DNA of 64,000 bases from Natronococcus sp. CG52. Lineage in GTDB: Archaea > Halobacteriota > Halobacteria > Halobacteriales > Natrialbaceae. The position numbers and the translations under genes were made by a program. The stretch spans positions 3,286,001 to 3,350,000 of the forward strand of contig NZ_CP099391.1 of assembly GCF_023913515.1 (NCBI RefSeq), in the 5' to 3' direction. Below, in pieces: positions 2,438-9,489 of the stretch. The first letter of the stretch is position 1. The number at the start of each line of letters is the position of its first letter. A model generated the notes under the pieces. That model saw only the letters and a program-made list of their open reading frames with translations, was not told the DNA's origin and did no database searches.

Positions 2438-2547
2438 ATACTGTCAGACAGAAGTCAGTGAGAAGTCGGTCGCTCGAACTCGGCCGTCTCCGAAGGCGAC
2501 GACCGACTATTCGCGACCGATCTTCAAATTGTTCTGTCCGACAGTAT
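2438..2547. repeat. Inverted-repeat element B, 110 bp
   Basis: The left arm ATACTGTCAGACAGAA (2438-2453) is matched in reverse complement by TTCTGTCCGACAGTAT (2532-2547) at 15 of 16 positions, with 78 bp between. The right arm reaches the first base of the helicase stop codon. No second copy was seen in this window. It is MITE-like in form or could be a long terminator hairpin; a target-site duplication was not recognised. Confidence 0.65.
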
Positions 2548-5500
2548 CAGTCGTCGTCCGCGGACTCGGCGTACTCGTCGGGCGCACACCCCAGCGAGCG
2601 GTGTGGACAGAACCGACAGTGCTCCCCCGGGCTGATCTCGCGGTACGACGGGTCGTCGACCGCCTCGAGCGCCTCGTGGACCGACGCCCACTCGGGTAGC
2701 TCGTCGGGATCGAAGAGGTCGACTCGAGGGCCGTCGACCGCACCGACGTAGACGTAGCCGACGGCCGAAACGGGTTCGTCGAACCGCCGACGGCAGGCGC
2801 GGGCGTACAGCGCGAGCTGGGCGGCATCCGCGGCGTCGATCCGGTCGGCGGTCGCCTTGTAGTCGAGCACGGCGATGCCGCCCCCATCGTCCTCGTCGAT
2901 CGGCGGAAGCCGCCGGACCGAGTCCACGTAGCCGACGACGTCGCCGGTAACGCCGTCGACGTCTCCCAGCGTGAACGGCAACTCCGCGGCGAGCGAGTCC
3001 CAGTCGGCGACCGGCCGGTCGTAGCCCGGCGCGGTCGCCTCGAAGTAGCGATCCACGCAGGCGAGGACGGCCTCGCGGTGCTCGAGCAGCCCCTGCGCAG
3101 TGAGCTGTCGGGAGGCGGCCTCGCGCCAGGCCGCTCGCGTCTCGTACTCCCGGTGGAACGCCTCCTCGGCGACGTCGTGGAAGACGGAGCCGACGACTCG
3201 CGCGCCGGAACTGGTCTCGGTTTCCGGGTCCCGGATCGGCCGTCCGTCGGCGCCGGTGACGACGGGGTCGTCGACCGCTCGCACGACGTGATCGAGGTAG
3301 TGTTTGCGCGGACAGCTATCGTGGGTCTCCATCGCCGTGTAACTGTGGCGCATCGCGACGGGGAGCTCACCGGCGTCCGAAAGCGCCCGGACCGGGAACC
3401 GGACGGTCTCCGAGGACAGGGCGGACGGTCGTCGACCGCCGGGCACCCGAAGTCGCGGTTCGACCTCGTCGCGAGCGTGACTCGCCGCGTCCGCGGCCGG
3501 GAGGAGGTTGCCGTGCCGGAGCAGCCGGCCGAGCCGGTGGACGGTCTCGATCGCCTCGCGAGTCTCGAGCGGTTCGACCGGTCGATCGTCGTAGCCGGCG
3601 TAGTAGGTGATCGTTCCCGGCCGCTCGTCGGCGGCGAGCGCAACTTCGTCGGTTCGGTCCACGACCGTCCGCGGGTACGTCTCGCGCACCCGTTCGAAGC
3701 TCTCGGTCAGCGTCGACCAGAGATCCATCCGCTGGCCGGTTACCGACCAGTCGATCGCCGGCGCGAGGCACGCTTCCGCGGTCGAGGCCGCGAGCTCGGT
3801 CTCGTCGCCGTCGTACTCGTAGTCGGAGCCGAACACGAAGAGGTGGTTTTCCGCCCGGGTGAGCGCGACGTGGAGCACGCGCCACTCCTCGCCGACGGTT
3901 TCGGTCGCGAGATCCGCGAGCAGGGGCGACTCGACGTCGTCGTCGAGCGTCGCGGCGAGCAGCCGGTAGCGGGCGCGCCGGGCGTAGTCGCCGTCGACGC
4001 ACCACTCCTCGTCAGAGAGGTAGGGGGCGAGTACGGTGTCGAACTCGAGCCCCTTCGCCTGGTGGACCGTCATCACGTCGACGCCATCCGCCGACTGCGT
4101 GCCCCGGGTTCGGTCGCTCTCGCTGCCGCGGAGCGTTCCCTCGAGCGCGTCGACGACCTCCGCCGAGAGGGTCTGTACCACGGTCTCGGGATCGTAGCGC
4201 TCGACGAACCGTTCGATCCGCTCGAGGTCGGTCCGTTCCTCGCTCGTGAGGAACCACTCGAGGCGGGTGAGCTCGCGAAACCGCGCGAGAAAGCCCGACA
4301 GCGGGTAGACGTCGCGCATCGTCTCCAGTTCCTCGAGGTGATCGCGCGACCGCTCGAGTCGGTCTCTCGCCTCGAGCGCGTCGGCGTCGACCTCGAAGAC
4401 GGCGTCGTACAGCGATCCGGACCGACCCTGCAGGGTCGCCAGGTCGGCTTCCGGAAGCCGGTAGCGGTACAGGAGGACCCGCCGGAGGTGCGCGTCCGCA
4501 TCCGAATCGACCAGCACGCGGAGATACGAGAGGAGCGTCCGGATGCCGGGCGAGATCTCGCCGCGCGGGGAGCCCGAAATCTCGTAGGGGATCTGCCGGT
4601 CCCGAAGCTCGTCGGCAATCGCCTGGGCGTGTCGGTTGGTGCGGACGATGACCGCGACGTCCTCCAGCGTCCGCTGCGGGACGTTCTCGCACGCTCCGTT
4701 GAGGAGTCTCGAGACCGTCGTCGCGACCTGTTCGGCCGTCGAGGGCGCTATCTCGTCGCTCTCGATCTTCACGACACGATCCGGCGGCTCGTCCTCGTCG
4801 TACGCGCCCGGCGTGCGGCCGTCCTCCCGGAGCGTCTTCGCGGACTGCGGCCCGTAGTCGCAGCGGTTGGTCAGATCGAGGATCTCCTGACGGGATCGAA
4901 AGTTGAGCTCGAGTTCGATCGCCTCGTGGTCGTCGTAGGCGTCGGCGAGCCGGTCGAGTCCCTCCCGATCGGTGCCGCGCCAGCCGTATATCGCCTGGTC
5001 CTTGTCGCCGATCGCGAGCAGCTCCGGCCGGTCGGGACCGGCCGTCAGCTCGGTGATGAGTCCGAACTGCGTCTCGTCGGTGTCCTGGAACTCGTCGCAG
5101 TAGACCTGTTCCCACTGACCCGTGATCTCGCTCGCGACGGCGTCGTCCTCGAGCAGTCTCGTCGCCGTTCGCACCAGTTCGTCGAAGTCGAAGACCCGCT
5201 CCTGCTCGAGGCGGGCGTGGTAATCCGCGTACACCTCGGTGTAGTGGCGAGCGAGCCGGAGGAACTCGACGTAGTGTTTCAGGCGACCGAACGGCGTCTG
5301 TTCGATGCGACCGGTCGCCGCCCCCCAGATCTGGTTGCCGAACAGCGCTCGCGGAAGGTGTTTCGTGGTCGGCTCCTCGAGCGAGAGCGCATCGATCGTG
5401 TTCGTCACGCAGGTCTGGAGGACCCGCAGGTAGCGGTCGACGTCCCGGACCACGTCGTCCTCGCGGAACGGCGCCGGGGCCTCGGCGATCTTCTCCCGAC

Positions 5501-6215
5501 AGTAAGTGAGGAGCGTGCCGTACTCGACCAGGGCCTCGCGGGCGGCGTCGGCGTGCTCGTCGCGGTTGAAGAAGCGCAGCGCCTCGTTGTCGAAGGAGAG
5601 TTCCTCCTCGGCGGTTCGCTCGAGCCAGAGGACGAACTCGTTGCACAGCTCGAGGGTGCGAACGTCGGGCAACTGGTCGCGGAGCTCCGCCGGCATGACG
5701 TCCTCCTGGCTTATCGCCTGGATGAACCGGTCGACGGCGTCGGCGAGTTCGGTCGGCGAGCCGTCGCCCGCCGACGAGGACGCGAACTCGTACTCGCGCT
5801 CGGCGAGGAGTCGGCCGACGATCCGGCGGCGTTTCCGTTCGGTGACGACCTCGAACTCGGGCGAGTAGCCGAGGTAGTAGGCGTACTCGCCGACGAGGCG
5901 ATAACAGAGGGAGTGGTAGGTGGAGACGTCGATGGCCGCCGCGGCCTCGGGGTCGAGTCGCTCGGCGACCGCCTCCCGGATGCTGGCCGCGGCCTCGTTG
6001 GCGAACGTCACCACCAGCACGTCGTCGGGGTCGACGGCGTCGCGCTCGATAGCGCGCTCGAGTCGCATGAGCATCGTCGTCGTCTTCCCGGTCCCGGCCC
6101 CCGCGTCGACGGACGTACAGGCCCGCCGGCTGTCGATCACCGCGCGCTGGTTGCCCCGCGGCTCGAGTTCCTCGGGGCCGCCGTCGTGCACGTCGGACGC
6201 GTCGGGATCAGCCAT
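2547..6215 (-). CDS. UvrD/AddA-like helicase fused to Fe-S PD-(D/E)XK nuclease
   Basis: A 1222-aa ATP-dependent helicase-nuclease expected to process DNA ends. SF1A helicase motifs are complete: Walker A GAGTGKTTT at about 39-47, DEFQDTDETQF at 374-384, GDKDQAIYGWRG at 403-414, ELNFRSR at 436, VMTVHQAKGLEFD, and the VALTRAENHLF motif VI. The last ~240 residues form a RecB-type nuclease: a first Cys in ETHDSCPRKHYL, the catalytic His in GSVFHDVAEEAF, GYVDS, VLDYKAT, QLALYA, then CRFCPHRSLGC giving the Cys set of an AddB/Cas4 iron-sulfur staple. The start overlaps the stop of the upstream nuclease-like gene by 8 nt. It is the third gene of the operon. Confidence 0.9.
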   Translation of the reverse strand: MADPDASDVHDGGPEELEPRGNQRAVIDSRRACTSVDAGAGTGKTTTMLMRLERAIERDAVDPDDVLVVTFANEAAASIREAVAERLDPEAAAAIDVSTYHSLCYRLVGEYAYYLGYSPEFEVVTERKRRRIVGRLLAEREYEFASSSAGDGSPTELADAVDRFIQAISQEDVMPAELRDQLPDVRTLELCNEFVLWLERTAEEELSFDNEALRFFNRDEHADAAREALVEYGTLLTYCREKIAEAPAPFREDDVVRDVDRYLRVLQTCVTNTIDALSLEEPTTKHLPRALFGNQIWGAATGRIEQTPFGRLKHYVEFLRLARHYTEVYADYHARLEQERVFDFDELVRTATRLLEDDAVASEITGQWEQVYCDEFQDTDETQFGLITELTAGPDRPELLAIGDKDQAIYGWRGTDREGLDRLADAYDDHEAIELELNFRSRQEILDLTNRCDYGPQSAKTLREDGRTPGAYDEDEPPDRVVKIESDEIAPSTAEQVATTVSRLLNGACENVPQRTLEDVAVIVRTNRHAQAIADELRDRQIPYEISGSPRGEISPGIRTLLSYLRVLVDSDADAHLRRVLLYRYRLPEADLATLQGRSGSLYDAVFEVDADALEARDRLERSRDHLEELETMRDVYPLSGFLARFRELTRLEWFLTSEERTDLERIERFVERYDPETVVQTLSAEVVDALEGTLRGSESDRTRGTQSADGVDVMTVHQAKGLEFDTVLAPYLSDEEWCVDGDYARRARYRLLAATLDDDVESPLLADLATETVGEEWRVLHVALTRAENHLFVFGSDYEYDGDETELAASTAEACLAPAIDWSVTGQRMDLWSTLTESFERVRETYPRTVVDRTDEVALAADERPGTITYYAGYDDRPVEPLETREAIETVHRLGRLLRHGNLLPAADAASHARDEVEPRLRVPGGRRPSALSSETVRFPVRALSDAGELPVAMRHSYTAMETHDSCPRKHYLDHVVRAVDDPVVTGADGRPIRDPETETSSGARVVGSVFHDVAEEAFHREYETRAAWREAASRQLTAQGLLEHREAVLACVDRYFEATAPGYDRPVADWDSLAAELPFTLGDVDGVTGDVVGYVDSVRRLPPIDEDDGGGIAVLDYKATADRIDAADAAQLALYARACRRRFDEPVSAVGYVYVGAVDGPRVDLFDPDELPEWASVHEALEAVDDPSYREISPGEHCRFCPHRSLGCAPDEYAESADDD

Positions 6216-7251
6216 CGAAGCGCACCTCCGTCGCCAGGTAGTCCTGACAGCAGACGGTGTAGCCGCAGTCCGGACAGGCGTGGCGCTCGATCTGTTCCCA
6301 CTGCGCGCTCGGATCGAACGATCCGGCGACGACGGCGCCGGCGACGTCGTCGAGCCGGGAGTCGACCGTCTCGTTTCGGTGCTCGTGTGTCATTCCGTAG
6401 GTGTGATGGTCGAGGTAGACGTCGGTGAGATCGATCGGCTTGAGCGTCGTCTCGACGGTGTTCCGTACCCAGTTGACCGCGGTCCCCGTTCGATCGGCGA
6501 GCGGAATCTGGACGTACCGGCAGGTTCGATCCCCGAGTTCGAGGTCGTCGCGCAGGTTCCGGAGCCCGTCGAGGACGACGGCCGTCTCGAAGAGCGCGCC
6601 GACGGCCTGCGGTTCGAACGACTCCGCGTCGGGATCGAAGTGGTCGACGAACAGGCCGGCGACGTCTCCCTCCCACTCCGACCGGTAGCGCAGGAGTCCG
6701 AGCGGCGCGAGCGTCGGCACGAACCGGACGCCGACGAGCGCGGCGCCGTCGCCGTAGACGTAGTCGACGGACGCGTCAATTCGAACGTGCCCCGGGTCCG
6801 TCTCTTCCTCGGTCTCGGCCGCCGCGGGGAGCGAGCGCGTGCTCGCGAGCGGCAGCTTCGGCCCGACGAACTCGCCGTCGGGAGCCGTCTCCTCGAGTCG
6901 GGAGATTCCCGCCGCGTGGTCGTCGCCGAACCGTTCGAGGTAGGCCTCGAGCGTCGCCTCGAGAATCGCCAGTTCGTGGCGACGCTGCGCCCGCGAGTGG
7001 AACCGCTCGTCGTGTCCGCGCCACAGCTCCGAGAGCCGACTCGAGGCCGCGGCCTCGAGTCGTTCGGGATCGGTCTTCCCGCGCCGTAGCGCGTCGCAGA
7101 CGGCCGTCCGCAGAAGGGCGACGCGGTCTCGTGTCGGCCGTTCGTCGTCGTCGCGCTCGAGGTCGTGGACGCGGGCGAACTCGTACCGCCGCGGGCAGTG
7201 GAGGTAGGTCTCGAGACCGTCCGCCGTGAGCGTCGGGAAGGCGTCAGTCAT
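6208..7251 (-). CDS. RecB/AddB-like nuclease-fold protein, apparently catalytically dead
   Basis: A 347-aa protein starting MTDAFPTLTADGLETYLHCP; this ATG overlaps the stop of the upstream gene by 8 nt. The opening LxxYLxCPRRYEFA is the classic first helix and first Cys of RecB/AddB/Cas4 nucleases. The end holds HACPDCGYTVCCQDYL, which completes an Fe-S type Cys set. Where active relatives have DxK after a GxVD strand, this one reads YVYGDGAALVGVRFV, with no acidic-x-Lys, and no GxxxH motif is visible. It is probably a structural or DNA-binding subunit corresponding to the C-terminus of AddB. Family assignment is moderately sure; loss of activity is inference. Confidence 0.75.
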   Translation of the reverse strand: MTDAFPTLTADGLETYLHCPRRYEFARVHDLERDDDERPTRDRVALLRTAVCDALRRGKTDPERLEAAASSRLSELWRGHDERFHSRAQRRHELAILEATLEAYLERFGDDHAAGISRLEETAPDGEFVGPKLPLASTRSLPAAAETEEETDPGHVRIDASVDYVYGDGAALVGVRFVPTLAPLGLLRYRSEWEGDVAGLFVDHFDPDAESFEPQAVGALFETAVVLDGLRNLRDDLELGDRTCRYVQIPLADRTGTAVNWVRNTVETTLKPIDLTDVYLDHHTYGMTHEHRNETVDSRLDDVAGAVVAGSFDPSAQWEQIERHACPDCGYTVCCQDYLATEVRFDG

Positions 7252-9463
7252 CGCGGAGCACCTCCCCGGCGGCGAACTCGAACTGCGAACGGACCGCTTC
7301 GGCGAGTTCCGGATCGATATCGCCCTCCTCGAGGACGACCGCGATCTCCTGGAACAGCTCCTCGGTCTCGGCGAGGTCGGCCGTTCCGCCGGTGCTCGCC
7401 TCGCGAAGAACGCGCTCGAGTTCGCCGCGCGGTTCCTCGAGCAGCGCCTCGATCGCGCCGGCTTCACCGTGGATCGTCGCGGTCGTGTCGGCGTCGACAT
7501 CTTCGAGCGTGAGCCCCGGCACGGACTCGATCAGTTTCAGGTACCGCGACTCCTCGTAGGTGCGCCGGAGTCCGCCGGAGCCGCGCTCGTAGGAACAACA
7601 GTACAGGACCTCCTCGGCCGCACGCGAGGCGAGGGCGAGCCGTCGTCGCGCGCGCTGGGCGTGATACGTTTCGAAGGGGTCGGCGACGTCGATTGCGTCG
7701 GTGACCGGCGCGAACGTCGACGCGGTCGTCGCGGCCGACGGATCGGTGACGGCGGGGTAGTTCGGCATCTCCCGGAGCCACGCCTGCGGGAAGAGCTGCG
7801 TGAGGAACTGCTCGCCCGGGTACTGCTCGTCGATCAGATCGAGCAGGAAGACGGCCGTCCGCGAGTCGTACTTCAGGTCGTCGGCCGCACAGACCGTGAC
7901 GCCGCCGGTCGGCGGCCGGGTCTCGACGGCGTGAACGTACGGCGCGTCGTACTGGATCGTCCGTCGAAGCATCCGCCGCAGTCCCTCCCAGTCGGGGGCG
8001 ACCAGGTCCGTTCCCTCGACGAAGCGGGCGATCTCGAGCACGCGGCGGACGCTCTCGAACTGCTCCCTGGCGTCGATCCACGTCTCGTCGCGAGCGATCC
8101 GCCCCTTCAGATCCGTTCGTCGAATCCACCGCTCGAGCGAGCGCTCGACGCTCGCGTCGGTACACGCCTCGAGCAGCGACGGTGAGAACTCGGGAACGCG
8201 GGCGCGAAGGCGATCGAGCGAGTCGTCTGCCGTATCCTCGAGCCCGCCCGCGTCGCCGCGCGCCCGGCGACTCTGGAGAGTGACGAACGCGTAGAGTTCG
8301 TTGACGACGGGATCCTCCGCGAGCGAGGAGGTTCCGATCGTCGCCGTCGGAATCCCGACCTCGCGGAGTCGGCGTCTGGTCTCCGGAACCCGTTCGATCC
8401 GCGGGACCGCGACGGCGATCTCGTCGTACGACCAGTCGTGGCGGTCGGTGAGCGACTGGATCTCCGCGGCGACGGTTCGGACCTGCTCGCGCGCGGTTCG
8501 GGTGCGGATGCGGCGGGCCTGCCCCGTCTCGGAACCGGGCGACCCGTCGCTCGCGTTCGTCGACGGCGACTCGCCCGTCGCGAGGAACCGTGTAATTGCG
8601 CCGTGTGCCGGCCGGGTCGCTGCGTCGGCTCCGTCGACCCGTGACGGATCGGGCTCGAAGCGTTCGACCTCGAGCCCCGCGTTCGATGCGATCGCCTCTA
8701 TCGAGCCGGGTTCGACGCGGGTTCGTTCGACGCTGGCGTGGCGTTCGCCCAGACACACCAGGTCGGCGTCCCGAGTGAGCGCGGCGAGGTAGCGCCGGTC
8801 GAGCCGTCGGTACTCCTCGAACTCGACGGCGAGGACGGCGTCGAACGAGTCCGTGACGCGGCGTCGAACGCCGTCGACGTCGTCTTCGAGCAGCGAGACC
8901 GAACCGGGAATCACGTCCGCCCGTTCGACGAACCCTCGCTCCTCGAGGGCCTCGTGGAATCGGTCGTTCATCGCGCACAGGAAAGCGAGACAGTCGTGTG
9001 GATCCTCGAGATCGTCGAAGCGGAGCTGCTGGCGGGTCGCCGCGAGCAACAGCTGCCCGACGTCTCGGGCGAAGCTCTCGTGACGGGCGGCGCGCTCGAG
9101 GTAGTCGGGAACGTCGCGGCTCGCACCGTCGATCACCAGCGAGATGAGCTCGATCCGTTCCTCGTACTCGAGGCGGTCGAGCGTCGGGTCGTACGCCTCG
9201 ACGGTCTTCGAGGCGTGTTCCGGGAGCGACTCGACGCGGGGCGATCGGGCCACGCCGGCGGGCGTCTCGACGTCCGCGAGCGTCTCCGCGAGCGCGTCGA
9301 GCCCCGCGGGGTGGCGTTTCAGCACCAGCACGTTTCGGGGACCGTGCGTCGAGACGAGTCGTCCGTACACTTCGGTGACGGCCGCCAGCAGATCGTGCTG
9401 GGGTTCCGGGAGGAGTTTGCAGGTGCCCTCGAGCGAGGGCGGAGTTGTACCAGTCAACGTCAC
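7244..9463 (-). CDS. AddB/RecC-like inactivated SF1 helicase subunit
   Basis: A 739-aa acidic protein, first gene of the three-gene operon. It has a helicase-like layout but no Walker A: the N-terminal strand reads NVLVLKRHPAGLDAL, with no GxGKT. Traces of later motifs remain: GGVTVCAADDLKYDSRTAVF resembles motif V of its neighbour, and RRRLALASRAAEEVLYCC resembles motif VI. The GTG start at 9463 is supported by a TTTAAATA box at about 9482-9489, giving a leaderless mRNA. It probably pairs with the two downstream proteins as the chi-reading or scaffold half of an AddAB-like complex; that role is inference. Confidence 0.7.
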   Translation of the reverse strand: MTLTGTTPPSLEGTCKLLPEPQHDLLAAVTEVYGRLVSTHGPRNVLVLKRHPAGLDALAETLADVETPAGVARSPRVESLPEHASKTVEAYDPTLDRLEYEERIELISLVIDGASRDVPDYLERAARHESFARDVGQLLLAATRQQLRFDDLEDPHDCLAFLCAMNDRFHEALEERGFVERADVIPGSVSLLEDDVDGVRRRVTDSFDAVLAVEFEEYRRLDRRYLAALTRDADLVCLGERHASVERTRVEPGSIEAIASNAGLEVERFEPDPSRVDGADAATRPAHGAITRFLATGESPSTNASDGSPGSETGQARRIRTRTAREQVRTVAAEIQSLTDRHDWSYDEIAVAVPRIERVPETRRRLREVGIPTATIGTSSLAEDPVVNELYAFVTLQSRRARGDAGGLEDTADDSLDRLRARVPEFSPSLLEACTDASVERSLERWIRRTDLKGRIARDETWIDAREQFESVRRVLEIARFVEGTDLVAPDWEGLRRMLRRTIQYDAPYVHAVETRPPTGGVTVCAADDLKYDSRTAVFLLDLIDEQYPGEQFLTQLFPQAWLREMPNYPAVTDPSAATTASTFAPVTDAIDVADPFETYHAQRARRRLALASRAAEEVLYCCSYERGSGGLRRTYEESRYLKLIESVPGLTLEDVDADTTATIHGEAGAIEALLEEPRGELERVLREASTGGTADLAETEELFQEIAVVLEEGDIDPELAEAVRSQFEFAAGEVLRDD

Positions 9464-9481
9464 CGACTATACCGGAGTTTG

Positions 9482-9489
9482 TATTTAAA
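9482..9489 (-). promoter_or_regulatory. TATA box of the helicase-nuclease operon
   Basis: TTTAAATA, read leftwards, is centred about 23-26 nt upstream of the GTG start at 9463. The spacing matches leaderless haloarchaeal promoters and supports the GTG start. Confidence 0.55.

Follow-up and report, generated by a model that had tools for sequence, protein, structure and literature searches.

A predicted three-chain AddAB-like helicase-nuclease with separately encoded AddB halves in haloarchaea, and its Argonaute-associated relatives

In bacterial AddAB (RexAB), the helicase-nuclease AddA, whose nuclease domain lacks an Fe-S cluster, is paired with AddB, an inactivated helicase that carries an Fe-S nuclease. 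RecBCD has three subunits and a single nuclease; its RecC combines a dead helicase with a dead nuclease fold, and RecD is a 5'-3' SF1B motor. Mycobacterial AdnAB consists of two full-length chains, each with a helicase fold and a nuclease. A UvrD-Cas4 fusion family has also been described as a defence-associated architecture (PMC5704561, available text), and an orthogroup from prokaryotic Argonaute (pAgo) operons, og_6, was assigned as UvrD plus PD-(D/E)XK (PMC6299218, available text). The haloarchaeal APAP system pairs a long-A pAgo with AgaP, a PLD protein; in the available text, its authors noted that some ago-agaP operons have a helicase gene nearby and tested the two-gene system, and a three-chain helicase-nuclease is not analysed in that part of the article (PMC11442185). 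We found no description of such a three-chain set in the open literature.

Here we analysed a window of 64,000 nucleotides from Natronococcus sp. CG52 (Natrialbaceae; NZ_CP099391.1, positions 3,286,001 to 3,350,000), in which three adjacent genes (hereafter P1, P2 and P3, or the trio) probably encode a single helicase-nuclease of three chains that belongs functionally with RecBCD, AddAB and AdnAB and has one motor and one nuclease. Both the complex and its function are what we infer from sequences and predicted folds. The original prediction had placed three genes with 8-nt overlaps at this locus, and the coordinates and both overlaps were borne out exactly, as follows.

9463-7244, minus strand: P1, 739 aa, GTG start
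7251-6208, minus strand: P2, 347 aa
6215-2547, minus strand: P3, 1222 aa
7244-7251, minus strand: overlap of the P1 stop and P2 start, 8 nt, ATGACTGA
6208-6215, minus strand: overlap of the P2 stop and P3 start, 8 nt, ATGGCTGA
9481-9488, minus strand: TATA-like element tttaaata, about 20 nt upstream of the P1 start

The 8-nt overlap is also found in most of the homologous Natrialbaceae loci (44 named loci), where it usually reads ATGACTGA or ATGAGTGA between P1 and P2 and ATGGCTGA or ATGGGTGA between P2 and P3; the overlaps in other haloarchaeal families are mostly 4 nt. An upstream comparison revealed a comparable tttaa(a/g)ta before P1 in the relatives checked, and the tttaaata element is the probable promoter of the whole operon. 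No P1-P2 or P2-P3 fusion was detected in any of the 100-plus loci examined: the three chains are separate, adjacent and in one fixed order in all of them, and their genes overlap in most.

P1 matched no known family, in Pfam or otherwise, and a PDB search with the single sequence also returned no match. A profile of 37 homologues matched UvrD1 (8.5e-6), AddB (3u44_B, 2.2e-5) and also PcrA in the PDB. The AF2 model of P1 (mean pLDDT 82.7) was most similar in Foldseek to UvrD (2.5e-20) and AddB (2.1e-19); AddB had the highest query TM-score (0.59) and matched far better than RecC. A credible Walker A motif is absent from the P1 homologues, with 115 of 116 lacking the pattern and the remaining match attributable to chance. 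The protein had been foreseen as helicase-shaped without Walker A, and both the motif survey and the model agree; the 739-aa chain is modelled as an SF1-helicase fold and not as something unrelated.

The discriminating test of P1 identity was an hhalign comparison with P3 and with archaeal AddB and AddA, the latter two taken from addB-addA operons of methanogens and other haloarchaea. The P1 profile aligned with positions 14-581 of archaeal AddB at an E value of 3.3e-16, compared with 6e-10 for AddA and 2.3e-9 for P3, which places it at the AddB N-terminus; the match to an alignment of three haloarchaeal AddB sequences was weaker (2.4e-4). P1 is best read as a catalytically dead SF1A-helicase fold and the predicted counterpart of AddB's N-terminal half. 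Plasmid records, NZ_CP100464.1 among them, give the name 'DNA helicase UvrD' to P1 homologues although these have no Walker A motif. Two apparent variants were discarded: the 1063-aa P1 of two loci (L042 and L049) is simply an open reading frame extended upstream, and the methanogen relatives outside the haloarchaea (G126 and others) are solo UvrD-nucleases, not P1.

P2 had been called RecB-like with a set of cysteines, and this was confirmed by a Pfam match to PDDEXK_1 (4.1e-8) and by four invariant residues in the alignment (Cys19, Cys326, Cys329 and Cys335); these Fe-S cysteines are kept in 115-116 of the 116 homologues. Because PDB searches with the P2 profile returned either nothing or chance matches, we turned to fold comparison. 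The AF2 model (pLDDT 90.2) had AdnA as its best Foldseek match (4.5e-5), followed by AddB (2.1e-4), with modest overall TM-scores of 0.37-0.47. The P2 profiles align from AddB column 735, which is the start of the nuclease domain, at hhalign probabilities of only 82-87%. These results support P2 as the probable equivalent of the C-terminal half of AddB, that is, its Fe-S PD-(D/E)XK domain. The proposal that AddB is split into a 739-aa and a 347-aa chain is supported too, since P1 and P2 align with the two AddB halves, the predicted folds agree and the split is present in every locus examined; P1 and P2 together would thus represent a split AddB.

The D-x-K and Q residues of the P2 nuclease are intact in 54 of the 116 homologues and lost in 62, the window protein being among the latter: D163 is kept, but R176/V178 stand in place of the D-x-K pair and E in place of Q. 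The P2 nuclease is predicted to be dead in the window lineage, which would leave the window enzyme with one nuclease. On a tree of P3, which is independent of P2, a single switch in the nuclease state of P2 separates two deep clades, with 31 rows dead and 52 intact (in a quick tree with several long branches and unsure inner placements), and no direction from a mobile defence engine to a core gene could be read from it.

P3 carries a full set of SF1A helicase motifs (GAGTGKT, TFANEAA, CDEFQDTD, GDKDQAIYGWRG, LNFRS, VHQAKGLEF and VALTRA) followed by the Fe-S nuclease motifs GYVD, VLDYKAT and CRFCPHRSLGC, just as the original prediction had it. Pfam matches were UvrD-helicase (2.7e-50), UvrD_C (2.2e-27) and PDDEXK_1 (1.5e-19). 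In an alignment of 18 sequences from several families, all SF1A motifs, D1098, D1118, K1120, Q1133 and the cysteines 968, 1200, 1203 and 1210 are invariant. Among the NCBIfam models, PcrA and Rep scored above addA, which was the highest scoring model for the true archaeal AddA used as a control. The P3 profile matched AdnB (2e-64) and the AdnA nuclease, and PADLOC gave mostly GajB-type UvrD cross-hits. P3 is best described as an SF1A motor of the UvrD/PcrA type to which an intact Cas4-like Fe-S PD-(D/E)XK nuclease is fused. Its earlier designation as the AddA counterpart did not hold: P3 is judged not to be an AddA orthologue, because PcrA and Rep score highest and because it has an Fe-S nuclease, which AddA lacks. 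By its architecture, a UvrD-type SF1 helicase with a Cas4-like Fe-S nuclease, P3 is a candidate member of the UvrD-Cas4 fusion family; it shares this architecture and a defence context with that family (PMC5704561) and with og_6 (PMC6299218), for which the available text describes no P1 or P2 partners and no relationship to AddB.

Since P3 has its nearer relatives in UvrD/PcrA and the UvrD-Cas4 fusions, with AddA more distant, it could act alone, with P1 and P2 as a regulatory or inhibitory pair and not as structural halves. Relatives that apparently act alone were found (L003, P0006 and P0008), solo UvrD plus Fe-S nuclease proteins being present in this genome (L003) and in methanogens, and the fusion family itself is known and defence-associated (PMC5704561, available text). 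We regard a stand-alone P3 as rather improbable, given that the P1 match to AddB is stronger than that to generic motors, that P2 matches the start of the AddB nuclease, and that the content, order and tight overlap of the trio are constant across the 100-plus loci. The solo protein of this genome (G000:C3:320453-321205, contig C3) is a second UvrD helicase with an Fe-S nuclease, apparently without P1 or P2, and its gene adjoins one for a J-domain protein.

As a set, the trio has in common with AddAB a dead-helicase subunit, an Fe-S nuclease domain and a motor-nuclease, and its gene order is that of the archaeal addB-addA operons (P0004/P0005 and P0009/P0010), in which AddB is a single chain. 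In AddAB, however, the AddB parts that are always separate as P1 and P2 form one chain, and the motor is AddA-like with a nuclease free of Fe-S whereas P3 is UvrD/PcrA-like with its own Fe-S nuclease; the AddB-type nuclease of the window lineage is predicted to be dead. The UvrD-like motor subunit is shared with AdnAB, whose AdnA is the best structural match of the P2 model, but AdnAB has two full-length chains whereas the trio has three, with the parts of one subunit separate. The window trio resembles RecBCD in having three subunits and a single (predicted) nuclease; in contrast to RecBCD, no RecD-type 5'-3' SF1B motor gene is among the three overlapping genes, P2 keeps the Fe-S cysteines, and P1 is much closer to AddB than to RecC.

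The gene order and the AddB matches of P1 and P2 would also fit a canonical AddAB whose AddB was split recently. We consider this very unlikely: the split is ancient and has become fixed, both HMM score and nuclease type set P3 apart from AddA, and canonical AddAB with a single-chain AddB is separately present in 25 of 116 haloarchaeal genomes, in 7 of them alongside the trio. These counts (43 genomes with the trio, 25 with AddAB and 7 with both, where about 9 are expected) gave no evidence of mutual exclusion between the two systems. Two fragments of a canonical haloarchaeal AddB were detected in the genome of the window, one at G000:C2:154807-155151 (59% identity over 113 aa, with an internal stop) and the other at G000:C1:1100104-1100259 (56% identity over 52 aa), suggesting a past loss of single-chain AddAB. 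A seemingly split AddB in another locus (L127, 7903-9207) was rejected, being one haloarchaeal single-chain AddB interrupted by a transposase gene; the AddA downstream of it is intact.

To profile the distribution of the trio, 391 haloarchaeal genomes were searched for P1 and the matches were counted from the listing. P1 was found in 140 genomes, comprising 89 of 101 in the family of the window (Natrialbaceae) and 51 of 290 elsewhere. A CBS-domain gene adjoins the trio in about 40 of 45 Natrialbaceae loci and a NUDIX gene in 23. Outside this family the occurrence is patchy, with a plasmid location in 16 records, one of which is a partial copy. The phage collection searched had no P1 match.

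The trio had also been proposed as a parallel to HerA-NurA, which now appears doubtful: a NurA-family gene (PF09376) was detected in 111 of 112 haloarchaea, this genome included. A replacement of HerA-NurA by the trio is not supported by these matches, and with a NurA-family gene also present it is not evident why a further resection enzyme would be needed. PF09376 matches nearly every haloarchaeon, including Haloferax volcanii, contrary to a review that states NurA to be absent from this species (PMC7776575). The Rad50 hook model was uninformative, as it misses H. volcanii too.

In the clade with an intact P2 nuclease, the trio often begins 5 nt after the gene of a PLD-family protein, which is itself preceded by a Piwi/pAgo gene. 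On plasmid unnamed3 of Salinigranum marinum, for example, the annotated order is Piwi, phospholipase D, 'DNA helicase UvrD' (P1), PD-(D/E)XK (P2) and ATP-dependent helicase (P3). Among the 391 genomes, all 14 pAgos with at least 90% identity to that of S. marinum are accompanied by the trio; the pAgo-PLD-P1-P2-P3 operon is contiguous in 13 of them, and the other is split by a contig break. The pAgo-PLD pair preceding the trio is of the published APAP type (PMC11442185), and what is new is that the 'helicase' of such pAgo operons is, judged by sequence, a three-chain AddAB-like set. The adjacent long-A pAgo and PLD genes that define APAP are present beside the relatives and absent from the genome of the window, in which no pAgo was found, so that the link to defence comes from relatives only. 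Outside the pAgo group the neighbours of the trio vary, and include BrxC/PglZ and DrmA/DrmB (L175), an LmuB-like SMC (L169 and L172), GmrSD (L170) and a nearby TmtA match (L188).

These neighbourhoods bear on whether the trio is primarily anti-invader in the window as well, degrading plasmid or virus DNA without a role in chromosomal repair. The plasmid-borne relatives, the pAgo-PLD genes beside all 14 trios of one pAgo clade and the BREX-, DISARM-, Lamassu- and GmrSD-like genes beside others are in its favour, but 89 of 101 family genomes have the trio, its steady CBS (about 40 of 45 loci) and NUDIX (23) neighbours are unlike a defence island, the window genome has no pAgo and the P2 nuclease is lost. 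On balance we find a purely anti-invader role in the window unlikely, though the least so of the alternatives considered. The earlier designation as an end-resection machine stands in part: resection for repair is only one option, as the relatives are plasmid-borne and linked to defence.

In the mechanism that we propose, P1, P2 and P3 would assemble into one complex and load onto double-stranded DNA at its ends. P3 would translocate 3'-to-5', its nuclease cutting the displaced strand, and P1 would thread or scan the other strand by analogy with AddB/RecC, for which strand scanning is described (PMC4824097). P2 may serve the window lineage as a structural clamp and the other lineage as a second nuclease. 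The intact-nuclease relatives would destroy invader DNA once Argonaute/PLD or another defence system has opened it, and may also provide Argonaute with guides. Guide supply has a precedent: in Escherichia coli, RecBCD takes part in the making of Argonaute guides without being strictly required, and AddAB co-precipitates with TtAgo (PMC10269773).

The window enzyme is most likely a chromosomal end-resection or DNA-degradation enzyme descended from what was once a mobile defence engine, and would derive from a two-nuclease relative serving Argonaute-linked defence; the presence of relatives beside Argonaute on plasmids suggests a defence tool turned standard in the genomes of one archaeal family. 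A broader proposal, which we put forward tentatively and hold with less conviction than the three-chain enzyme itself, is that the trio is a fourth architecture beside RecBCD, AddAB and AdnAB (a split AddB plus a UvrD-Cas4-type motor-nuclease), which may have evolved to serve an Argonaute-PLD immune operon and other defence systems on plasmids as their dedicated engine for degrading DNA and producing guides, and have become core in Natrialbaceae with one nuclease switched off and the Fe-S scaffold kept.

The trio offers a testable AddAB-like end-processing enzyme for haloarchaea. The intact- and dead-nuclease lineages, one inferred switch apart and both with the Fe-S cysteines, form a natural control pair with which structural and catalytic roles of the Fe-S cluster can be told apart. 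Genetically, Argonaute is tied to a RecBCD-class enzyme by their joint encoding in all 14 members of one pAgo clade.

Several loci outside the window had further features. A 967-1004 aa SMC/LmuB-like ATPase is encoded directly upstream of the trio in three of them (L169, L171 and L172), possibly a Lamassu-like system with the trio as its effector. A near-identical cassette recurs across genera in six loci (L054, L055, L057, L137, L139 and L180), with several copies on plasmids; it comprises an ATPase/DUF4143 gene, the trio with an intact P2, a gene for a 375-aa DnaQ/PolB-exonuclease-like protein and one for a divergent PLD protein that bears a P-loop-like motif. In one genome (G601, locus L135) the pAgo beside the trio is broken into pieces while the PLD gene and the trio are undamaged, which suggests that the trio may persist after its Argonaute partner is lost.
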